The position numbers and the translations under genes were made by a program. Of a stretch of DNA of 64,000 bases, positions 24,988 to 64,000 are shown one piece after another. How positions within the stretch are numbered: position 1 is the stretch's first letter; every line of letters begins with the position of its first letter. Under the pieces are notes generated by a model, which worked only from the letters and a program-made list of their open reading frames with translations, was not told the origin of the DNA and ran no database searches. Source of the stretch: Bradyrhizobium guangdongense (GTDB taxonomy: Bacteria > Pseudomonadota > Alphaproteobacteria > Rhizobiales > Xanthobacteraceae). The DNA lies in NCBI RefSeq assembly GCF_004114975.1, contig NZ_CP030051.1:4278001-4342000 (forward strand). Direction: 5' to 3'.

Positions 24988-25014
24988 TTGCGGAACATGT
25001 ATCGAACATATAGT
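24988..25014 (+). promoter_or_regulatory. lexA promoter with SOS box
   Basis: A perfect alphaproteobacterial LexA box, GAAC-N7-GAAC, lies at 24993-25007. It sits between a -35-like TTGCGG (24988-24993) and a -10-like TATAGT (25009-25014), a 15-base spacer. A second, imperfect copy GTTC-N7-GTTT lies at 25019-25033. LexA bound here would block its own gene. Confidence 0.88.
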
Positions 25015-25107
25015 GTCCGTTCATGATTTGTTTCGAGCATGTAACGGCTTATCGCTGACTTCAGCGTCTCGGAATCGAACGACATCGTCAGGGGGATTTT
25101 GGTCGAG

Positions 25108-25809
25108 ATGTTAACGCGCAAACAATACGAGCTCCTGCGGTTCATCAGCGAGCGGCTGAAGGAAAGCGGCGTGCCGCCCTCCTTCGACGAGATGAAGGAC
25201 GCGCTCGATCTGCGTTCGAAGTCGGGCATCCACCGCCTGATCACCGCGCTCGAGGAGCGTGGCTTCATCCGCCGCCTGCCGAACCGCGCCCGCGCGATCG
25301 AAGTGATCAAGCTGCCCGAGCTCCAGGCCGCCGCCGGTAACCGCCGCGGCTTCACCCCGAGCGTGATCGAGGGCAATCTCGGCAAGGTGCGCACGACATC
25401 GAGCCCGCCCGCCGACGAGGGCGAACGCCCCGTCGCAGTGCCGGTGATGGGCCGCATCGCGGCTGGTACGCCGATCGAGGCGCTGCAGACCCGCAGCCAC
25501 ACCATCAGCGTCCCGCCGGACATGCTCGGCGCAGGCGAGCACTACGCACTCGAAGTGCGCGGCGATTCGATGGTCGATGCCGGCATTCTCGACGGCGACA
25601 TGGCGCTGATCCAACGCAACGAGAGTTGCGACACCGGCGATATCGTGGTCGCGCTGATCGACGACGAGGAAGCCACCCTGAAACGTTTCCGCCGCCGCGG
25701 CGCCTCCATTGCGCTCGAGCCGGCGAATGCCGCCTATGAAGTCCGCATCCTGCCGCCCAACCGGGTGAAGATCCAGGGCAAGCTGATCGGGCTGTACCGG
25801 AAGTACTAA
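25108..25809 (+). CDS. lexA: LexA repressor
   Basis: A 233-residue SOS repressor. The N-terminal winged-helix domain (1-70) starts [12 protein letters not shown] and has the alphaproteobacterial recognition region [21 protein letters not shown]. The linker is followed by the S24 peptidase domain: self-cleavage bond Ala119-Gly120 in GRIAAGTPI, nucleophile Ser154 in [10 protein letters not shown], and Lys192 in EATLKRF. An in-frame TTG nine bases upstream is less likely than the ATG at 25108. The promoter carries its own LexA box. Confidence 0.98.
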
Positions 25810-56959: not shown

Positions 56960-59455
56960 CTAGCACCTGGGCTGGCCGGGCGGGCATTTTTTCGCCGCAG
57001 GCGGCGGCGCGGGCGGCCTCGGCGGCGGGGCGGCCGGTCGCGGCGGCGGCGGTGGCGCGACCGCCATCCGCGGCGGCGGTGGGGGCGCCGGCCGGGCCAC
57101 AGGCGGCGGCGGCGCGGGCCGAGCCATCGGCGGTGGCGGGGGCCGCACGGCGGCAACTGGCGGGCGCGGTGGCGGGGGCGGCGCAGCCATCCGCGGCGGC
57201 GGAGGCGCTACCCGCGGCGGAGGCGGTGCCACGTGCGGCGGAGGCGCAGCCGTCGGCCTTGCGAGCGCCTGCGGATGGGGCGGGGGTGGCGGCGGTGGCG
57301 TTCTTGTGACCTGCGCGGGCGTTGGCGTTGCAGGCCTCTGACCAGGCGGCTTGATCTGCTCCCGCGTGGTGACCGGCGGCGAAGGCTGCGTCGGCTTCCC
57401 ATTGGTCACGTTGGTCGTGGTCACGCCCGGTTTGCCTGCCGGGGTCGTGGTCGGCGTGACGGCCGGCTCATGCGCCAGAGGTTTGCCGTGTTCGGCTGCA
57501 CCGGCCGGCGGCGTTTGCGCAACGGGCGGCTTCGCGGCTTGGTTGGCGGCCGGGTTGGTCGCGGCGTTGGCCGGCGCGGTCGTGTTGCCGGGTGCGGTCA
57601 CCGTATTGGGATGAACCGGCGGCTGGCCGTTGGCGGGCGCGTTCGCCGTGGGCGCCGGCTTGCCATTGGGCGCCTGGACCGCACCGGCGGGCGGCGGTGG
57701 CGTGTTGTTGGTGCCCGGCACCGGCAGCGCGTGGCCTGGCGCCGGCGGTGGCGTCGACGTCGACGGAGTGGTCGTGGTCGGCGTGGCGTGGACCTGCATC
57801 ACCTTCATCGCCCCGGGCTTTGCCGTGGGGTTGCTGACGAGCGCCGCCTGGCTCGGCTTGAGGGCCTGATTCGGATTGGCCTGGATCTGCTGCGCCTGCT
57901 GCTTCACGACCGTCGGCACCTGCGTCATCGCGCTCGGGCGCCCAGGTCCGTTCGCCGCAATGGTCACGGCCGCAGTGGTATTGCCCGGCGGTGGCGGCGG
58001 CGGCGCCTGGTTGATCACGGTGTTGATGACCGTGGTGTTATGGATGTTGTTCACGATGATGTTGTTCGGCGGCGGCGCGACATAAACAGGCGGATTGTAG
58101 AAGGCCGGGATCGGCACGAACACCGGCTGCGGCAGCACGAACAGGCCGACCACGGGGAACGGCGGCGGCAGCACCACGAAGTCCGGGGGCGGCGGCGGGC
58201 AGAAATAGACCGGCGGCGGCGGCGGCGGCACGAAATCGAACACGGGATCGCTGAAATACAGCACCGGACGATCGACATAGACGATCTCCTCCGGCGGCGG
58301 CGGCGGCACGTCATAGTCCATCACCGTAAACGTCGGCGGCGGCTCGAGCGGCGCGGTCAGGATCGCGAGCCGGCGCCTTGCATCACCCGCATGCGGTCCG
58401 TGCGGATAACGCCGCAGATACGACCAATAGGCATCGGGTGTATCGGCGCGATAGGTCCGTCGCCAGGTGATCGCCTCGCGACGCGCCGCCACGATCGCCA
58501 TCACGCGCTTGGCCAGGGGATCGCCGGGATAGGCGGCGAGAAACTCTTCATAGGCCGGCAGCGTGTCGCGCTCGAGCGCGGCGGCATAGGCGTCCTGCAC
58601 GCCGAGATCGCGGATCGGCTTGTTGCGGATTGCGGCGACCTGGTCGGGCGCGGCCTGCGGCGGCGGCGCGTCGGGAGCGCGATCGAAGAAGCTGAATTGC
58701 GCCGTGATCTTCTGGTCCTCCCACGGCACCTGCGCGCCCTTGGAATTCTCGTTGACGCGCAAACGGACGCGGTCGAACACCTCCGGCAACGACAATCCGC
58801 CGGTGCGGATCATCTCGGCCAGCGATTGCGCGTAGATGCTGTACGGCCCCGGCTCTTCGGGTGCCACCGTGCCCGGCGCGGCGTTGAAGGCGATCAGCAT
58901 GTTCGGATCGGGCTCGACCAGCGCGAGCCCGCTCGCGATCGGCTGCTGGCCGCCCTCGATGAAGGGTTGGGCCCGTGCCGCATCGAGCACGATGATGTTG
59001 GCCTTGAGCGGAATGGCCGCGAGCTGGCGGGCATAGTCGCTGATGCGCAGCGCCTCGGTCGGAATGTCGGTGTCGCGCGCAATGCTCGAATCCACCGGGA
59101 TGAAATAGTTCTCGCCGGCAAGCTGCACGCCATAACCGGCAAGATAGACCATCGCGACGGTGCCGGGGCCCGAGGCCTGCGCCTTCTGGATGAAGTCGCG
59201 AAGGCTCTTGCGCAGCGTGTCGCCGTCGAGATCGCGCGCGCCGACCACGTCGAAGCCCGCCGCCTGCAGCGTCTGCGCGATCAGGCCGGCATCGTTGGCC
59301 GTGGTCGCCAGCGGCGACTTGGCATAAGCGCCGTTGCCGACCACGAGTGCAATGCGCTTCTCCTGCTGCTGTGCGCGCACCGGACCGGACACGCCCGCGG
59401 CCAGGACCGCGATCGGGAGGAGAAGGCAGATGAAGACTTTGAACGTCCCACGCAT
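56960..59455 (-). CDS. caspase-like (peptidase C14 fold) pseudo-enzyme with long proline-rich tail
   Basis: An 831-residue exported protein. A signal peptide (MRGTFKVFICLLLPIAVLAA, cleavage near 28) precedes a caspase-fold domain (about 33-260). The position of the catalytic His reads Tyr108 (YLAGYGVQLAGENYFIPVD), and that of the Cys reads Ala160 (IIVLDAARAQPF), so it should have no protease activity. A helical region (about 275-370) with TPR-like spacing follows (YEEFLAAYPGDPLAKRV, YWSYLRRYPHGPHAGDARRRL). The last 440 residues are rich in Pro, Ala and Thr, with FVPPPPPPVYF-type hydrophobic-proline stretches, an IIVNNIHNTTVINTVINQ patch and a Cys-containing end. The ATG at 59455 starts the signal. 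The tail could span the periplasm or bind the wall; this is inference. Confidence 0.85.
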   Translation of the reverse strand: MRGTFKVFICLLLPIAVLAAGVSGPVRAQQQEKRIALVVGNGAYAKSPLATTANDAGLIAQTLQAAGFDVVGARDLDGDTLRKSLRDFIQKAQASGPGTVAMVYLAGYGVQLAGENYFIPVDSSIARDTDIPTEALRISDYARQLAAIPLKANIIVLDAARAQPFIEGGQQPIASGLALVEPDPNMLIAFNAAPGTVAPEEPGPYSIYAQSLAEMIRTGGLSLPEVFDRVRLRVNENSKGAQVPWEDQKITAQFSFFDRAPDAPPPQAAPDQVAAIRNKPIRDLGVQDAYAAALERDTLPAYEEFLAAYPGDPLAKRVMAIVAARREAITWRRTYRADTPDAYWSYLRRYPHGPHAGDARRRLAILTAPLEPPPTFTVMDYDVPPPPPEEIVYVDRPVLYFSDPVFDFVPPPPPPVYFCPPPPPDFVVLPPPFPVVGLFVLPQPVFVPIPAFYNPPVYVAPPPNNIIVNNIHNTTVINTVINQAPPPPPPGNTTAAVTIAANGPGRPSAMTQVPTVVKQQAQQIQANPNQALKPSQAALVSNPTAKPGAMKVMQVHATPTTTTPSTSTPPPAPGHALPVPGTNNTPPPPAGAVQAPNGKPAPTANAPANGQPPVHPNTVTAPGNTTAPANAATNPAANQAAKPPVAQTPPAGAAEHGKPLAHEPAVTPTTTPAGKPGVTTTNVTNGKPTQPSPPVTTREQIKPPGQRPATPTPAQVTRTPPPPPPPHPQALARPTAAPPPHVAPPPPRVAPPPPRMAAPPPPPRPPVAAVRPPPPPMARPAPPPPVARPAPPPPPRMAVAPPPPPRPAAPPPRPPAPPPAAKKCPPGQPRC

Positions 59456-59625
59456 GGCTTGCTTGCCCGCTATTGTTGTTGAGGTGCCAACGCCCATCAA
59501 GCGCGTGGCGAGCTGAATGACACTTGAACGAAACACTTTGTCACGAAAGGCTCGGATTGAGGCGGCGGCATGGCACCGCCCGGGCCCTGCGCCTCGCGTC
59601 AGCTCCACGTCAGCTTCAGCCTCTT

Positions 59626-59671: not shown

Positions 59672-62600
59672 CTAGATCTGCTGCACGTCCACCACGCCGG
59701 CGACTGCCTTGATGGCGCCGGCGATCTGCGGCGAGACCTTGAAGCGGCCGGGCAGCTTCATCTCGACCTCGGTCTCGAGGTCGAGCATCATCACCAGCGA
59801 GACTTCCCCGTCGCCATTGGAGCGCGGCGCGATGCCGGGACTGCCGATTTTGGGCGCTGCGCCGTTCGAGGGCGCTGCCTCGGGCCCGGCGAGACGTTTG
59901 GCGATCGAGTCCAGCGGCTTGGTATCGCGCACGAAGATGCGCAGGCCTTTCTGGGTCTTGGCCGCAGCGTCGTCGAGCGGCTCGGCATGCAGCACGCGGG
60001 CGCGGACGTCCTCGCCCTGAAGCTCGGCCCCGAGCTGCAGCAGCACCGCGGCCCCCGGCTCCAGCACGTCGCGATATTGCGCGAGGCCTTCGGAGAATAG
60101 CACCGCCTCGAAATGGCCCGTGGGATCGGACAGCCCCATGATGCCCATCTTGTTGCCGGTCTTGGTGCGCCGCTCCATGCGCGACACCACGGTCGCGGCA
60201 ACCTTGCCGGCGGTGGCGCCGGTCTTCACCGCACGCGAGAATTCCGCCCAGCTCTGCACCCGCAGCCGCTTCAGCACGGTGGCGTAATCGTCGAGCGGAT
60301 GGCCCGACAGGAAGAAGCCGACGGCGTCGTATTCGCGGCGGAGTTTTTCCGCCGGCAGCCACGGCTCGATCTGCGGCAGCATGATGGTCGGCGCGTCCGC
60401 CGACATGCCGAACATGTCGTTCTGGCCGATGGTCGCGGCCTCGTGCGCGCGCTGGCAGGCGGCGAGGATCGAGTCCGCGCCGGCGAAGACGCGGGCACGG
60501 TTCGGCTCCAGCGTGTCGAAGGCGCCGGCGGCGGCGAGACTTTCGATGATGCGCTTGTTGATCGCGCGCGGATTGACCCGCGCGGCAAAGTCGGCGAGCG
60601 AGGTGAACAACCCGTTCTTGGTCCGCTCCTCGATGATCTGCTCGATCGCCTGGATGCCGACGCCCTTCAGCGCGGCGAGCGCGTAATAGATCGTCTTCTC
60701 GCCGACCTCGAACGTGGCGCCCGAGCGGTTGATGTTCGGCGGCTCGACCTTGATGCCGAGGCGCTGCGCCTCGGAGCGGAATTCTGAGAGCTTGTCGGTG
60801 TTGTTGAGATCGAGCGTCATCGACGCCGCGATGAACTCCACCGGATAATGCGCCTTCATGTAGGCGGTGTGGTAGGACACCAGCGCATAGGCCGCCGCGT
60901 GGCTCTTGTTGAAGCCGTAGTCGGCGAATTTCGCCAAGAGCTCGAAGATGGTCTCGGCCTGCCCCTTCGGCACGCCGTTCTTCACCGCGCCCGCAACGAA
61001 GATGTCGCGCTGCTTGTCCATCTCGGCGCGGATCTTCTTGCCCATGGCGCGACGCAACAGGTCGGCGTCGCCGAGCGAATAGCCCGACATCACCTGCGCG
61101 ATCTGCATCACCTGCTCCTGGTAGATGATGACGCCGAAGGTCTCCTTCAGGATCGGCTCGAGCACGGGATGCAGATATTCCGGCTCCTCGTCGCCATGCT
61201 TGCGCGCGCAATAGGTCGGGATGTTCGCCATCGGGCCCGGTCGATACAGCGCCACCAGCGCGATGATGTCCTCGAACCGGTCGGGGCGCATGTCGATCAG
61301 CGCGCGCCGCATGCCCTGGCTTTCAACCTGGAACACGCCGACGACGTCGCCCCGCGCCAGCATCTGATAGCTCTCGGCATCGTCGATCGGCAGCGTGGCG
61401 AGATCGACATCGATGCCGCGCGGCTTCAAGAGCTTCACCGCGACATCGAGCACGGTGAGCGTCTTCAGGCCGAGAAAGTCGAACTTGACGAGGCCCGCCG
61501 GCTCGACCCATTTCATGTTGAACTGGGTCACCGGCATGTCGGATTTGGGATCGCGATAGAGCGGCACGAGCTCGCTCAGGGGACGATCGCCGATCACGAT
61601 GCCGGCCGCATGGGTCGAGGCGTGCCGCGTCAGGCCCTCGAGACGCTGCGCGATGTCGAAGGCGCGCGCCACGATCGGGTCTTCGTCGCGGAATGCCTGC
61701 AGCTTCGGTTCGCTCTCGATCGCCGCGGCCAGCGTCACTGGCGCCGCCGGATTCTGCGGCACCAGCTTGGTCAGCTTGTCGACCTGGCCATAGGGCATCT
61801 GCAGCACGCGGCCGACGTCGCGCAGCACGCCGCGCGCCTGCAGCGTACCGAAGGTGATGATCTGCGCGACCTGGTCGCGGCCGTACCGCTCCTGGACGTA
61901 CCTGATCACCTCGCCGCGGCGGTCCTGGCAGAAGTCGATGTCGAAGTCCGGCATCGAGACGCGCTCGGGATTGAGGAAGCGCTCGAAGAGCAGGCCGAAC
62001 TTGATCGGATCGAGGTCGGTGATGGTCAGCGCCCAGGCGACTAGCGAGCCGGCGCCGGAGCCGCGGCCCGGTCCGACCGGAATGCCCTGGCTCTTCGCCC
62101 ATTTGATGAAGTCGGACACGATCAGGAAGTAGCCCGCGTACTTCATCCGCATGATGACGTCGAGCTCGAAGGCCAGGCGCTTGTTGTAGTCCTCTTCGCT
62201 CATGCCTTGCGACAGCCCGTGCACGCGCAGGCGATTGGCGAGCCCCTCCTCGGCCTGCCGTTTCAACTCGGCCGCCTCGACCGCGGCCGCATCGGAACTG
62301 CCGGCCGCACCGACCGTGAAGAACGGCAGGATCGGCTTGCGCGTCAGCGGGCGGAACGAGCAACGTTCGGCGATCTCGACCGTCGAGGCCAGCGCCTCCG
62401 GAATGTCGGCGAACAGCACCGCCATCTCGGCGCGGGTCTTGAAGCGGTGATCGGGCGTGAGCTGCTCGCGCTCGGTCTCGGCGATCAGCCGGCCGCCCGC
62501 GATGCAGAGCAGCGCGTCGTGGGCCTCGTAATCGTCGGTCGCGGCGAAATACGGCTCGTTGGTGGCGACCAGCGGCAGGCCCTTCGCATAGGCGAGGTCG

Positions 62601-63175
62601 ATCAGCCCGCTCTCGATCCGACGTTCCTTGTCGGTGTTGTGGCGCTGTAGCTCGACATAGAGGCGGTCGCCGAACAGGCCGGCGAGACGCTCGCAGCGCG
62701 CGGCCGCAACCTCGGCCTGCCCGCTCGCAAGCGCCAGCGAGACCGGCCCGTCGGGGCCGCCGGTCAGCGCTATCAGCCCTTCCGTCTCGCCGTCGAACCA
62801 GTCGAATTTGATGAACGGCGCATGGCTGTCAGGGGATTCGAGGAAGGCGCGGGAATTCAGTCGCATCAGGCTGCGATAGCCCCGCTCCTGGGCGGCCAGC
62901 AGCACCACGCGCGAGGGCGCCAGCGCGTTGCGCGCGTTGGGATCCTGGTCGCCGAAATCGACCGCGAGTTCCAGGCCCACGATCGGCTGGATGCCGGACC
63001 CCGCCATCTTGTCGGAGAATTCGAGTGCACCGAACAGATTGTCGGTGTCGGTCAGCGCCAGCGCCGGCTGGTGGTCCTTCTTGGCAAGCTCGGCGAGCTT
63101 GGCGATCTTGATGGAGCCCTTCAGCAGCGAATAGGCCGAATGAACGTGAAGGTGGACAAATCCGGCGCTCGGCAT
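59672..63175 (-). CDS. dnaE: DNA polymerase III alpha subunit
   Basis: A 1167-residue replicative polymerase of the DnaE1 type. PHP domain at the N-terminus ([18 protein letters not shown]), polymerase palm with [15 protein letters not shown] and the catalytic aspartates in [19 protein letters not shown], the fingers region, [30 protein letters not shown], a helix-hairpin-helix (about 830-900) and an OB domain (about 990-1080). It ends with a tau-binding region. The ATG at 63175 gives the usual start; 29 extra upstream codons are unlikely. The SOS-controlled micro-gene lies 208 bases upstream on the same strand. Confidence 0.96.
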   Translation of the reverse strand: [1167 protein letters not shown]

Positions 63176-63383
63176 GGTCGCGTGACGGCCTCTTGCAGAT
63201 GAATTGGAGCGGTCGCCGGCGTCCGGAGCGTCATTCTCTCGCCCAGCCGACTCGCCTGACAATGGTGGGGACTCGCCGCGCCAGAGTCCACGCCGGAGCG
63301 GCCGCTTCGCCGCCTCATCCTGCTTTTCCCCAAGGAGGTCTTGAGACTCAGGTCTCGAGGCTCACGCCTCGGGGCTCAGCTGG

Positions 63384-63482
63384 CTAGAGTTGCGGGATGA
63401 CCTGGGCCCAGATCGCGATCATTCCGACGAACAGCGCGATCGACGTCAGTGCAGCGGCTTCTTCCACGAAAATCCTGAACAT
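63384..63482 (-). CDS. SOS-controlled micro membrane protein, SidA-like candidate
   Basis: A 32-residue ORF beginning MFRIFVEEAAALTSIALF and ending IAIWAQVIPQL: a short cytoplasmic-type start, one TM helix of about 20 residues (AALTSIALFVGMIAIWAQVI) and a three-residue tail. GGAG lies six bases before the ATG at 63482, an ideal spacing that favours this start over an in-frame ATG at 63494 (36 residues). A promoter overlapped by two perfect LexA boxes lies 18 to 50 bases upstream. Caulobacter SidA is a 29-residue single-pass membrane inhibitor of cell division, directly under LexA; as I recall, it too lies by dnaE. Orthology is inferred from size, topology, regulation and place. The gene is well supported; its function is not proven. 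Confidence 0.82.
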   Translation of the reverse strand: MFRIFVEEAAALTSIALFVGMIAIWAQVIPQL

Positions 63483-63499
63483 GGCTTGCTCCATCACCA

Positions 63500-63543
63500 G
63501 AACGTATGAAGAACATTGTTCTCATTTCGTTCTCAGGAGTCAA
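63500..63543 (-). promoter_or_regulatory. promoter with two LexA (SOS) boxes
   Basis: On the minus strand, -35 TTGACT (63543-63538), a 17-base spacer and -10 AACAAT (63520-63515) form a good promoter. GAAC-N7-GAAC at 63532-63518 covers the spacer and the -10. A second perfect box (GTTC-N7-GTTC on this strand, 63514-63500) covers the likely start of transcription. LexA bound at both would repress tightly. Confidence 0.88.
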
Positions 63544-63593
63544 GCAATCCAGGTCCTTTCAAAAAGAAATGGTTAACCTGCTGAATTCACGCA

Positions 63594-63623
63594 ATAAAAA
63601 AGCCCCGGCGCAAGGCCGGGGCT
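63594..63623 (-). terminator. rho-independent terminator of the outer-membrane protein gene
   Basis: A perfect 9-bp stem (AGCCCCGGC 63601-63609 with GCCGGGGCT 63615-63623), a five-base loop, and a run of six T residues followed by ATT on the minus strand. It stands 33 bases past the stop at 63656. Confidence 0.95.
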
Positions 63624-63655
63624 TTCGACGATCGCTCGATCCCGAGCGACTGTTC

Positions 63656-64000
63656 TCAGTAGCGCGCGACGAGCGGGCCGCCGAACTTGTAGTTCAGGCG
63701 GACGAGGCCCATGTCGACGTCCTGACGGATGCGGTCGGTCTGGAAGCCGGCGAAGGTGACGTCCTTGTCCGACAGGAAGATGTGGTTGTACTCGACGCCA
63801 ACCGACCAGTTCGGAGCGAAGCCGAATTCGAGGCCCGCGCCGACCGTGCCGCCCCAACGGGTGTCGCTGTTGGACGCGAAGGTCACGCCGCCCGCACGGA
63901 GCTCGTTCTTGGTGCCGACCACAGCCGCACCGCCCTTCGCGTAGAGCAGGACGTTGTTCCAGGCGTAGCCGACCTGACCGGTGATCAGACCGAACGAATC
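63656..64000 (-). CDS. outer membrane beta-barrel protein (Omp25/31-like), C-terminal part
   Basis: The frame is open from the right edge to a stop at 63656, giving the last 114 residues of a protein whose start lies outside the window. Alternating beta strands (GQVGYAWNNVLLYAKGGAAVVG, WGGTVGAGLEFGFAPNWSVGVEYNHIFL) and the end GLVRLNYKFGGPLVARY are typical of the rhizobial small porin-like Omp25/Omp31 family (OmpW/OmpA-type barrel). The C-terminus ends in Tyr rather than Phe. A strong terminator follows. An abundant outer-membrane protein is the likely role. Confidence 0.88.
   Translation of the reverse strand, partial: DSFGLITGQVGYAWNNVLLYAKGGAAVVGTKNELRAGGVTFASNSDTRWGGTVGAGLEFGFAPNWSVGVEYNHIFLSDKDVTFAGFQTDRIRQDVDMGLVRLNYKFGGPLVARY

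Follow-up and report, generated by a model that had tools for sequence, protein, structure and literature searches.

SidA of Caulobacter crescentus is described as a 29-residue inner membrane protein that is induced in the SOS response and interacts with FtsW and FtsN, and its lethality is reported to be suppressed by mutations in ftsW or ftsI (PMC4211646). In Caulobacter its block of division acts through FtsW/FtsN and leaves the Z-ring undisturbed (PMC4211646; PMC13396833). The gene is given the locus tag CCNA_02004 in PMC10769358. It has also been stated that sidA causes the extreme filamentation of a Caulobacter lexA null strain, and that ~97% of the SOS promoters in Caulobacter carry one LexA box (PMC12700426). 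DidA, from the same organism, is likewise described as a small membrane division inhibitor acting on FtsW/I/N (PMC4211646). In other bacteria, SOS-induced membrane division inhibitors include YneA (Bacillus), ChiZ (Mycobacterium), SosA (Staphylococcus) and DivS (Corynebacterium). These are larger proteins with parts that lie outside the membrane, and we know of no sequence relation between them and the protein described here. The role of blocking division during the SOS response is shared by SulA, which is an inhibitor of FtsZ. In size, possession of a single helix and control by LexA, type I toxins of the TisB/DinQ kind are also comparable: TisB has 29 residues and is LexA-controlled. DinQ is described as an SOS-regulated toxic single-transmembrane peptide (PMC3567139).

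The locus described here lies in a 64-kb window (the whole stretch of DNA that was analysed) from Bradyrhizobium guangdongense, and its features are collected in Table 1. The original prediction had likened a short ORF in this window to SidA on the grounds of size, topology, LexA control and proximity to dnaE, and each of these was matched in the sequence: the two proteins have 29 and 32 residues, a single helix, a LexA-boxed promoter, a gene position upstream of dnaE and, as set out below, sequence kinship. They differ in that the window operator holds two exact boxes within a fixed 33 bp, whereas each of the four Caulobacter loci holds one exact box upstream of dnaE, and in that the window protein is a few residues longer, ends in PQL and has W rather than V at position 25, a residue that is invariant in the family alignment. 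The identity of the ORF as DidA was considered and rejected, since DidA, at 71 residues, is twice as long as the 32-residue protein and is DriD-controlled and SOS-independent, whilst the window ORF has two LexA boxes. The Pfam SulA model (PF03846) found no match in the genome from which the window is taken, in a search that detected the E. coli positive control, so that a SulA-independent checkpoint would be expected.

Table 1. Features of the SidA-like locus in the 64-kb Bradyrhizobium guangdongense window.
Feature	Position	Strand	Remarks
dnaE (DNA polymerase III alpha)	59672..63175	-	208 bp downstream of the ORF; conserved neighbour
SidA-like ORF	63384..63482	-	32 aa plus stop; single predicted transmembrane helix
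Shine-Dalgarno core GGAG	63489..63492	-	5' of the ATG of the ORF; GGAG or close variants in most of 30 loci
LexA box 2 (GAACGTATGAAGAAC)	63500..63514	+	exact predicted box, directly after the -10; covers the expected transcription start
Composite double operator GAACN7GAAC-N3-GTTCN7GTTC	63500..63532	.	33 bp; the two boxes face each other
-10 element AACAAT	63515..63520	-	17 bp from TTGACT
LexA box 1 (GAACGAAATGAGAAC, minus-strand letters)	63518..63532	-	exact predicted box; in the promoter spacer, overlaps the -10
-35 element TTGACT	63538..63543	-	from promoter-site scan
Terminator-like site	63601..63617	-	after the beta-barrel gene; 1 found vs shuffle mean of 0.5, weak alone
Outer-membrane beta-barrel gene (PF13505)	63656 to window end	-	upstream of the ORF

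The micro-ORF and its place upstream of dnaE

The claim that the window encodes a one-helix protein of 32 residues, too short for routine gene calling, proved correct in its coordinates and letters, and is borne out by both selection and structure prediction. Across the 30 best loci of the family (a set that includes the window's own copy and was also used for the box counts below), pN/pS of the ORF was 0.17 in frame versus 1.5 and 4.0 in shifted frames, the latter computed with stops left in, and mean DNA identity was 78% inside the ORF versus 29% across the 96 nt that lie 3' of it. Judged by these alignments, the ORF is a real gene on which purifying selection acts. Alternative starts are available at a GTG (63497, adding five residues) and an ATG (63494, adding four), and the start conserved among relatives is the ATG that gives 32 residues. 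The Shine-Dalgarno sequence, which had been called ideal, is better described as a good GGAG core placed 6 nt before this ATG. The residues M1, F5, E8, A9, L12, S14, L17, F18, A23, W25, A26, Q27, P30 and Q31 were invariant in 20 members, and amongst 33 members from across the order the invariant residues were F18 and W25 only. A single-sequence AlphaFold model predicts one helix that spans residues 2-31 (mean pLDDT 94), and the best 17-mer hydropathy of the protein is 2.13; the modelled helix is as would be expected for a transmembrane segment. No model in Pfam or NCBIfam fits the protein (the best NCBIfam match reached 14 bits, the cut-off being 60), and the ORF was also unmatched in a search of plasmids.

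Homologues upstream of dnaE were sought across relatives, as the original prediction had suggested, and a six-frame search of 149 family genomes, the window's own included, located the ORF in 107 at E<=0.01. An order-wide profile search matched 48 of 397 genomes, including 29 from other families. When 40 weaker matches from the family and order were fetched, some of them at E ~0.01, the ORF was followed by dnaE on the same strand in 36 and an exact LexA box was present in 33; the match at one further locus (L049) lies close to a contig end. For the 42 family genomes in which the ORF was not matched, 37 regions upstream of dnaE were read (331 bp only in the case of L274), the other five genomes having no dnaE start on a contig, and in 32 of the 37 there was neither an exact box nor a profile match of at least 6 bits on the dnaE strand. 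Whole genera of the family thus seem, from these regions, to carry no such ORF upstream of dnaE. Second SidA-like copies were seen at L051 (G022:C13), L057 (G140:C1) and L058 (G114:C34), with no dnaE nearby and no exact LexA box; these are possibly paralogues under other control.

In 104 of the 107 ORF-bearing family genomes, dnaE was located within 3 kb of the ORF (strand unscored), and where strand was read it lay downstream on the same strand in 29 of the 30 best loci, the exception being L029, which is without dnaE. This arrangement, along with the absence from the window of any terminator-like site between the ORF and dnaE, is what a leader peptide or upstream ORF would show if it regulated dnaE in cis and so tuned the supply of polymerase during the SOS response, a reading that is considered highly improbable here. 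In one genus, three genomes (G093, G072 and G129) carry the ORF with its composite operator on a contig that continues for >20 kb downstream of the ORF and that lacks dnaE, which is on another contig. At L029 (G093:C2) the SidA-like gene and its composite operator are flanked by a LolD-like and a NusG-like ORF, both named by eye. That ORF and operator are kept apart from dnaE argues against a cis role for dnaE. In addition, the distance from the ORF to the DnaE match ranges from 45 to 644 bp among the weaker-match loci, and selection at the amino acid level together with a conserved helix motif is atypical of leaders. On its other side, the promoter of the ORF would be separated from the beta-barrel gene by the terminator-like site. 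Downstream of dnaE, the minus strand of the window carries an 882-codon ORF (56960-59608) whose N-terminal region resembles a caspase when judged by eye and whose proline-rich tail is very long.

The promoter and its double LexA operator

The TTGACT-N17-AACAAT promoter of the original prediction is one of two promoter-like sites in the region 63160-63660, where shuffled sequences average 0.0, and the two LexA boxes that had been placed over its -10 element and start site are indeed both exact. Both boxes are kept in 27 of the 30 best loci, with one box in two loci and none in one. The window contains three exact GTTCN7GTTC boxes, and the third and last of these (24993-25007) sits upstream of lexA, in agreement with the claim that lexA alone in this window has a comparable box. 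The lexA gene itself (named by eye) runs from ~25105 to 25809 on the plus strand, with its one exact box ~100 bp upstream of its start (window 24993-25809). The number of boxes is on its own within chance, in that at least three were present in 13 of 100 shuffles, or 25 of 100 with the motif read the other way, and the whole genome has 187 exact copies of the LexA box versus 213 of a reversed control pattern. What is beyond chance is the pairing of the boxes and their coincidence with the ORF.

Conservation among related genomes, on which the original prediction had been staked, extends from the ORF to the operator. When searched for independently of the ORF, the composite operator was found in 93 of 149 family genomes, with a pattern that allowed a middle of 0-12 and that, the motif being its own reverse complement, matches on both strands; the reversed control pattern was found in 5 of 149 family genome rows. 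Each matching genome has it at a single place, with the exception of G004 and G081 (two places each). Amongst 75 listed places, drawn from 73 of the 93 matching genomes, 69 are at the ORF (<=250 bp), and of the six that lie away from ORF matches, five are at diverged copies of the ORF in genus g10. It was through the operator that these five additional family genomes were reached; their ORFs (for example MRAAASDLMRALTSASLLAGTLVVWAKLLAVL) begin 17-59 nt after the box, with the start chosen by script, and score 10.8 to 18.1 bits against the profile. The sixth place, G081:C333:6095-6130, is a composite operator away from dnaE and from any SidA-like ORF match, and may be due to chance. In the five g10 loci (L240, L249, L257, L263 and L270) the operator middle is 4 bp, which creates a GAAC-N4-GTTC centre. 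This is the form of Gram-positive LexA boxes, and the centre might thus serve LexA as a palindromic binding site.

Promoter and operator also appear to be built together. In a loosely oriented set of operators, used for these two measures only, TTGAC was found <=25 bp upstream of the composite operator in 40 of 42 cases, and in 36 operators of 33 bp the three middle positions were A in 31, A in 30 and T in 36. Since the conserved middle letters are part of the -10 element, and given the spacing of TTGAC, promoter and operator form one conserved object. The composite operator was absent from 23 fetched loci belonging to other families of the order, 19 of which have at least one exact box, and on this comparison the double operator looks to be a derived feature of the window's family. 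A different arrangement is seen in family f20, where four loci (L034-L037) have the reverse order of boxes, GTTCN7GTTC followed by GAACN7GAAC starting 31 bp on; as read from these loci, it is a second route to a doubled operator.

Kinship to SidA and distribution in the Alphaproteobacteria

Alignment to SidA, another check proposed at the outset, was made through four Caulobacter sp. genomes (two of them MAGs), which were located using a surface-layer protein sequence. In all four, an ORF encoding MIR[IV]ARESLALVSVA[SG]FVWMMCTVA[QN]LVA is found directly upstream of dnaE after the LexA box GAACATCTTGTGAAC, this being the one exact box upstream of dnaE at each locus. The dnaE neighbourhood named in the original prediction therefore holds for these genomes as it does for the window, and dnaE presumably adjoins sidA (CCNA_02004) in the Caulobacter type genome as well. 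The Caulobacter ORF encodes 40 residues from its first ATG and 29 from its second; the 29-residue start is our reading, based on the GGAGG that precedes it. The ORF is taken to be SidA by its length, box and place, as opposed to the published letters of SidA. Against a family profile (A3) that was built without any Caulobacter sequence, the 29-residue form scored 15.6 bits (12.6-16.1 over three variants), a score equalled by 1 of 5000 shuffles and by 6 of 5000 class-preserving shuffles, with an HMM match that spans profile positions 4-21 only. When aligned by eye, the Caulobacter ORF and the window protein have E8, A11, L12, S14, A16, F18, V19, M21, A26 and Q27 in common (10/29), which puts the identity of the window protein to the ORF taken as SidA at about a third over 29 residues.

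This kinship bears on whether the protein might instead be an SOS-induced, membrane-depolarizing peptide of the TisB/DinQ type, a type I toxin whose effect would be slower growth or the formation of persisters, with no action on the divisome. TisB and DinQ match the size, topology and regulation of the window protein equally well; the sequence kinship to the dnaE-linked Caulobacter ORF speaks against this reading. The window protein is moreover acidic at its N-terminus, with E8 conserved, E7 nearly so and a net charge of about -1, whereas pore-forming peptides are usually cationic. A search of 63100-63700 with Rfam at the gathering score gave no match and hence no known antisense RNA family, although an RNA of an unknown kind would escape such a search. 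The toxin reading is, on this evidence, unlikely.

A class-wide search with profile A2 matched 2 of 385 genomes, both in the window's genus, and profile A3 matched 25 of 385 at E<=0.1, of which 23 are outside the genus; among these 23, dnaE is near the match in three only (L075, L076 and L081). The remaining A3 matches were rejected as homologues, since by look they are fragments of longer frames or chance ORFs. A survey of the class was also anchored on dnaE. It covered 89 of 222 other genomes with DnaE, made up of 29 loci and 60 fetched ones; they were hand-picked among those with top DnaE scores, and certain genomes, for the most part small ones, were skipped. The survey found an exact box upstream of dnaE in 21 and none in 68; the reversed pattern was found in three. 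At 15 of the 21 boxed loci a hydrophobic ORF of 20-45 residues follows the box by 15-140 nt, compared with 121 of 1780 random positions. Two further boxed ORFs (L137 and L139) have 47 residues and the same motif, DIAALASV...W, as judged by eye; they exceed the 20-45 residue limit and were counted in by eye. With them included, 17 of the 89 class genomes, spread over 11 family groups, have a LexA-boxed hydrophobic micro-ORF ahead of dnaE. For several of these box-anchored candidates the profile score is near zero, and the kinship of these is read solely from place and regulation.

A putative SOS division checkpoint

The ORF is likely to be an orthologue of SidA that acts on FtsW/FtsI/FtsN to arrest septal wall synthesis in the SOS response, as judged from its sequence, operator and gene place. 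Intact LexA would occupy the adjacent boxes as two molecules (presumably dimers) and block RNA polymerase at the -10 element and start site. Upon DNA damage, RecA would promote self-cleavage of LexA and the promoter would open, after which the 32-residue protein would insert in the inner membrane and keep the FtsW/FtsI/FtsN septal wall synthase inactive, such that division would wait for repair. For SOS induction, membrane insertion and the divisome target, this proposal draws by analogy on the SidA literature. A double lock would fit a peptide for which leakage would be costly, in view of the extreme, sidA-dependent filamentation of the Caulobacter lexA null strain.

The targets of SidA are known for Caulobacter only, and a LexA-regulated membrane protein of the SidA family could have changed its target, for example to another envelope protein. 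The partial extent of the HMM match to SidA would be in keeping with such a change. So would the interfaces predicted on FtsW: YneA is reported to interact with FtsW, and a low-confidence model in the same source puts SidA on TM7 of FtsW, on a different side than YneA, ChiZ and SosA (PMC13396833), so that inhibitors of this type are predicted to differ in their interfaces. Gene place and regulation have, against this, been kept from Caulobacter to the window's genome, which suggests that function has been kept too, and a changed target is considered very unlikely. Arrest of septal wall synthesis by a SidA orthologue is the reading favoured here.

To our knowledge, no SOS division inhibitor has been described in the Alphaproteobacteria outside Caulobacter, and no Bradyrhizobium SidA was found in searches of open-licence literature. 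Systems of this kind are known from Caulobacter, and the new elements are this member, the breadth of its distribution and the composite operator. The findings suggest that the checkpoint is spread far wider than the single species in which it has been studied. On balance we lean towards the broader view that in much of the Alphaproteobacteria the ancestral SOS division checkpoint is SidA, a dnaE-linked, LexA-boxed and fast-diverging micro-ORF that has been mistaken for a Caulobacter oddity, and that the window's family has remade its switch into a double LexA operator of fixed 33-bp length, sited at a single place in each genome, by which two repressors would keep a lethal peptide tightly locked.

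The class includes root-nodule symbionts, for which the ORF now provides a testable gene. The operator locates copies where protein searches fail, five having been found in this manner, and the diverged SidA-like proteins are a natural set with which to map how a helix of ~30 residues brings the septal wall synthase to a halt. Should the double operator act as proposed, a single lethal gene would here be under naturally stacked repression by LexA.
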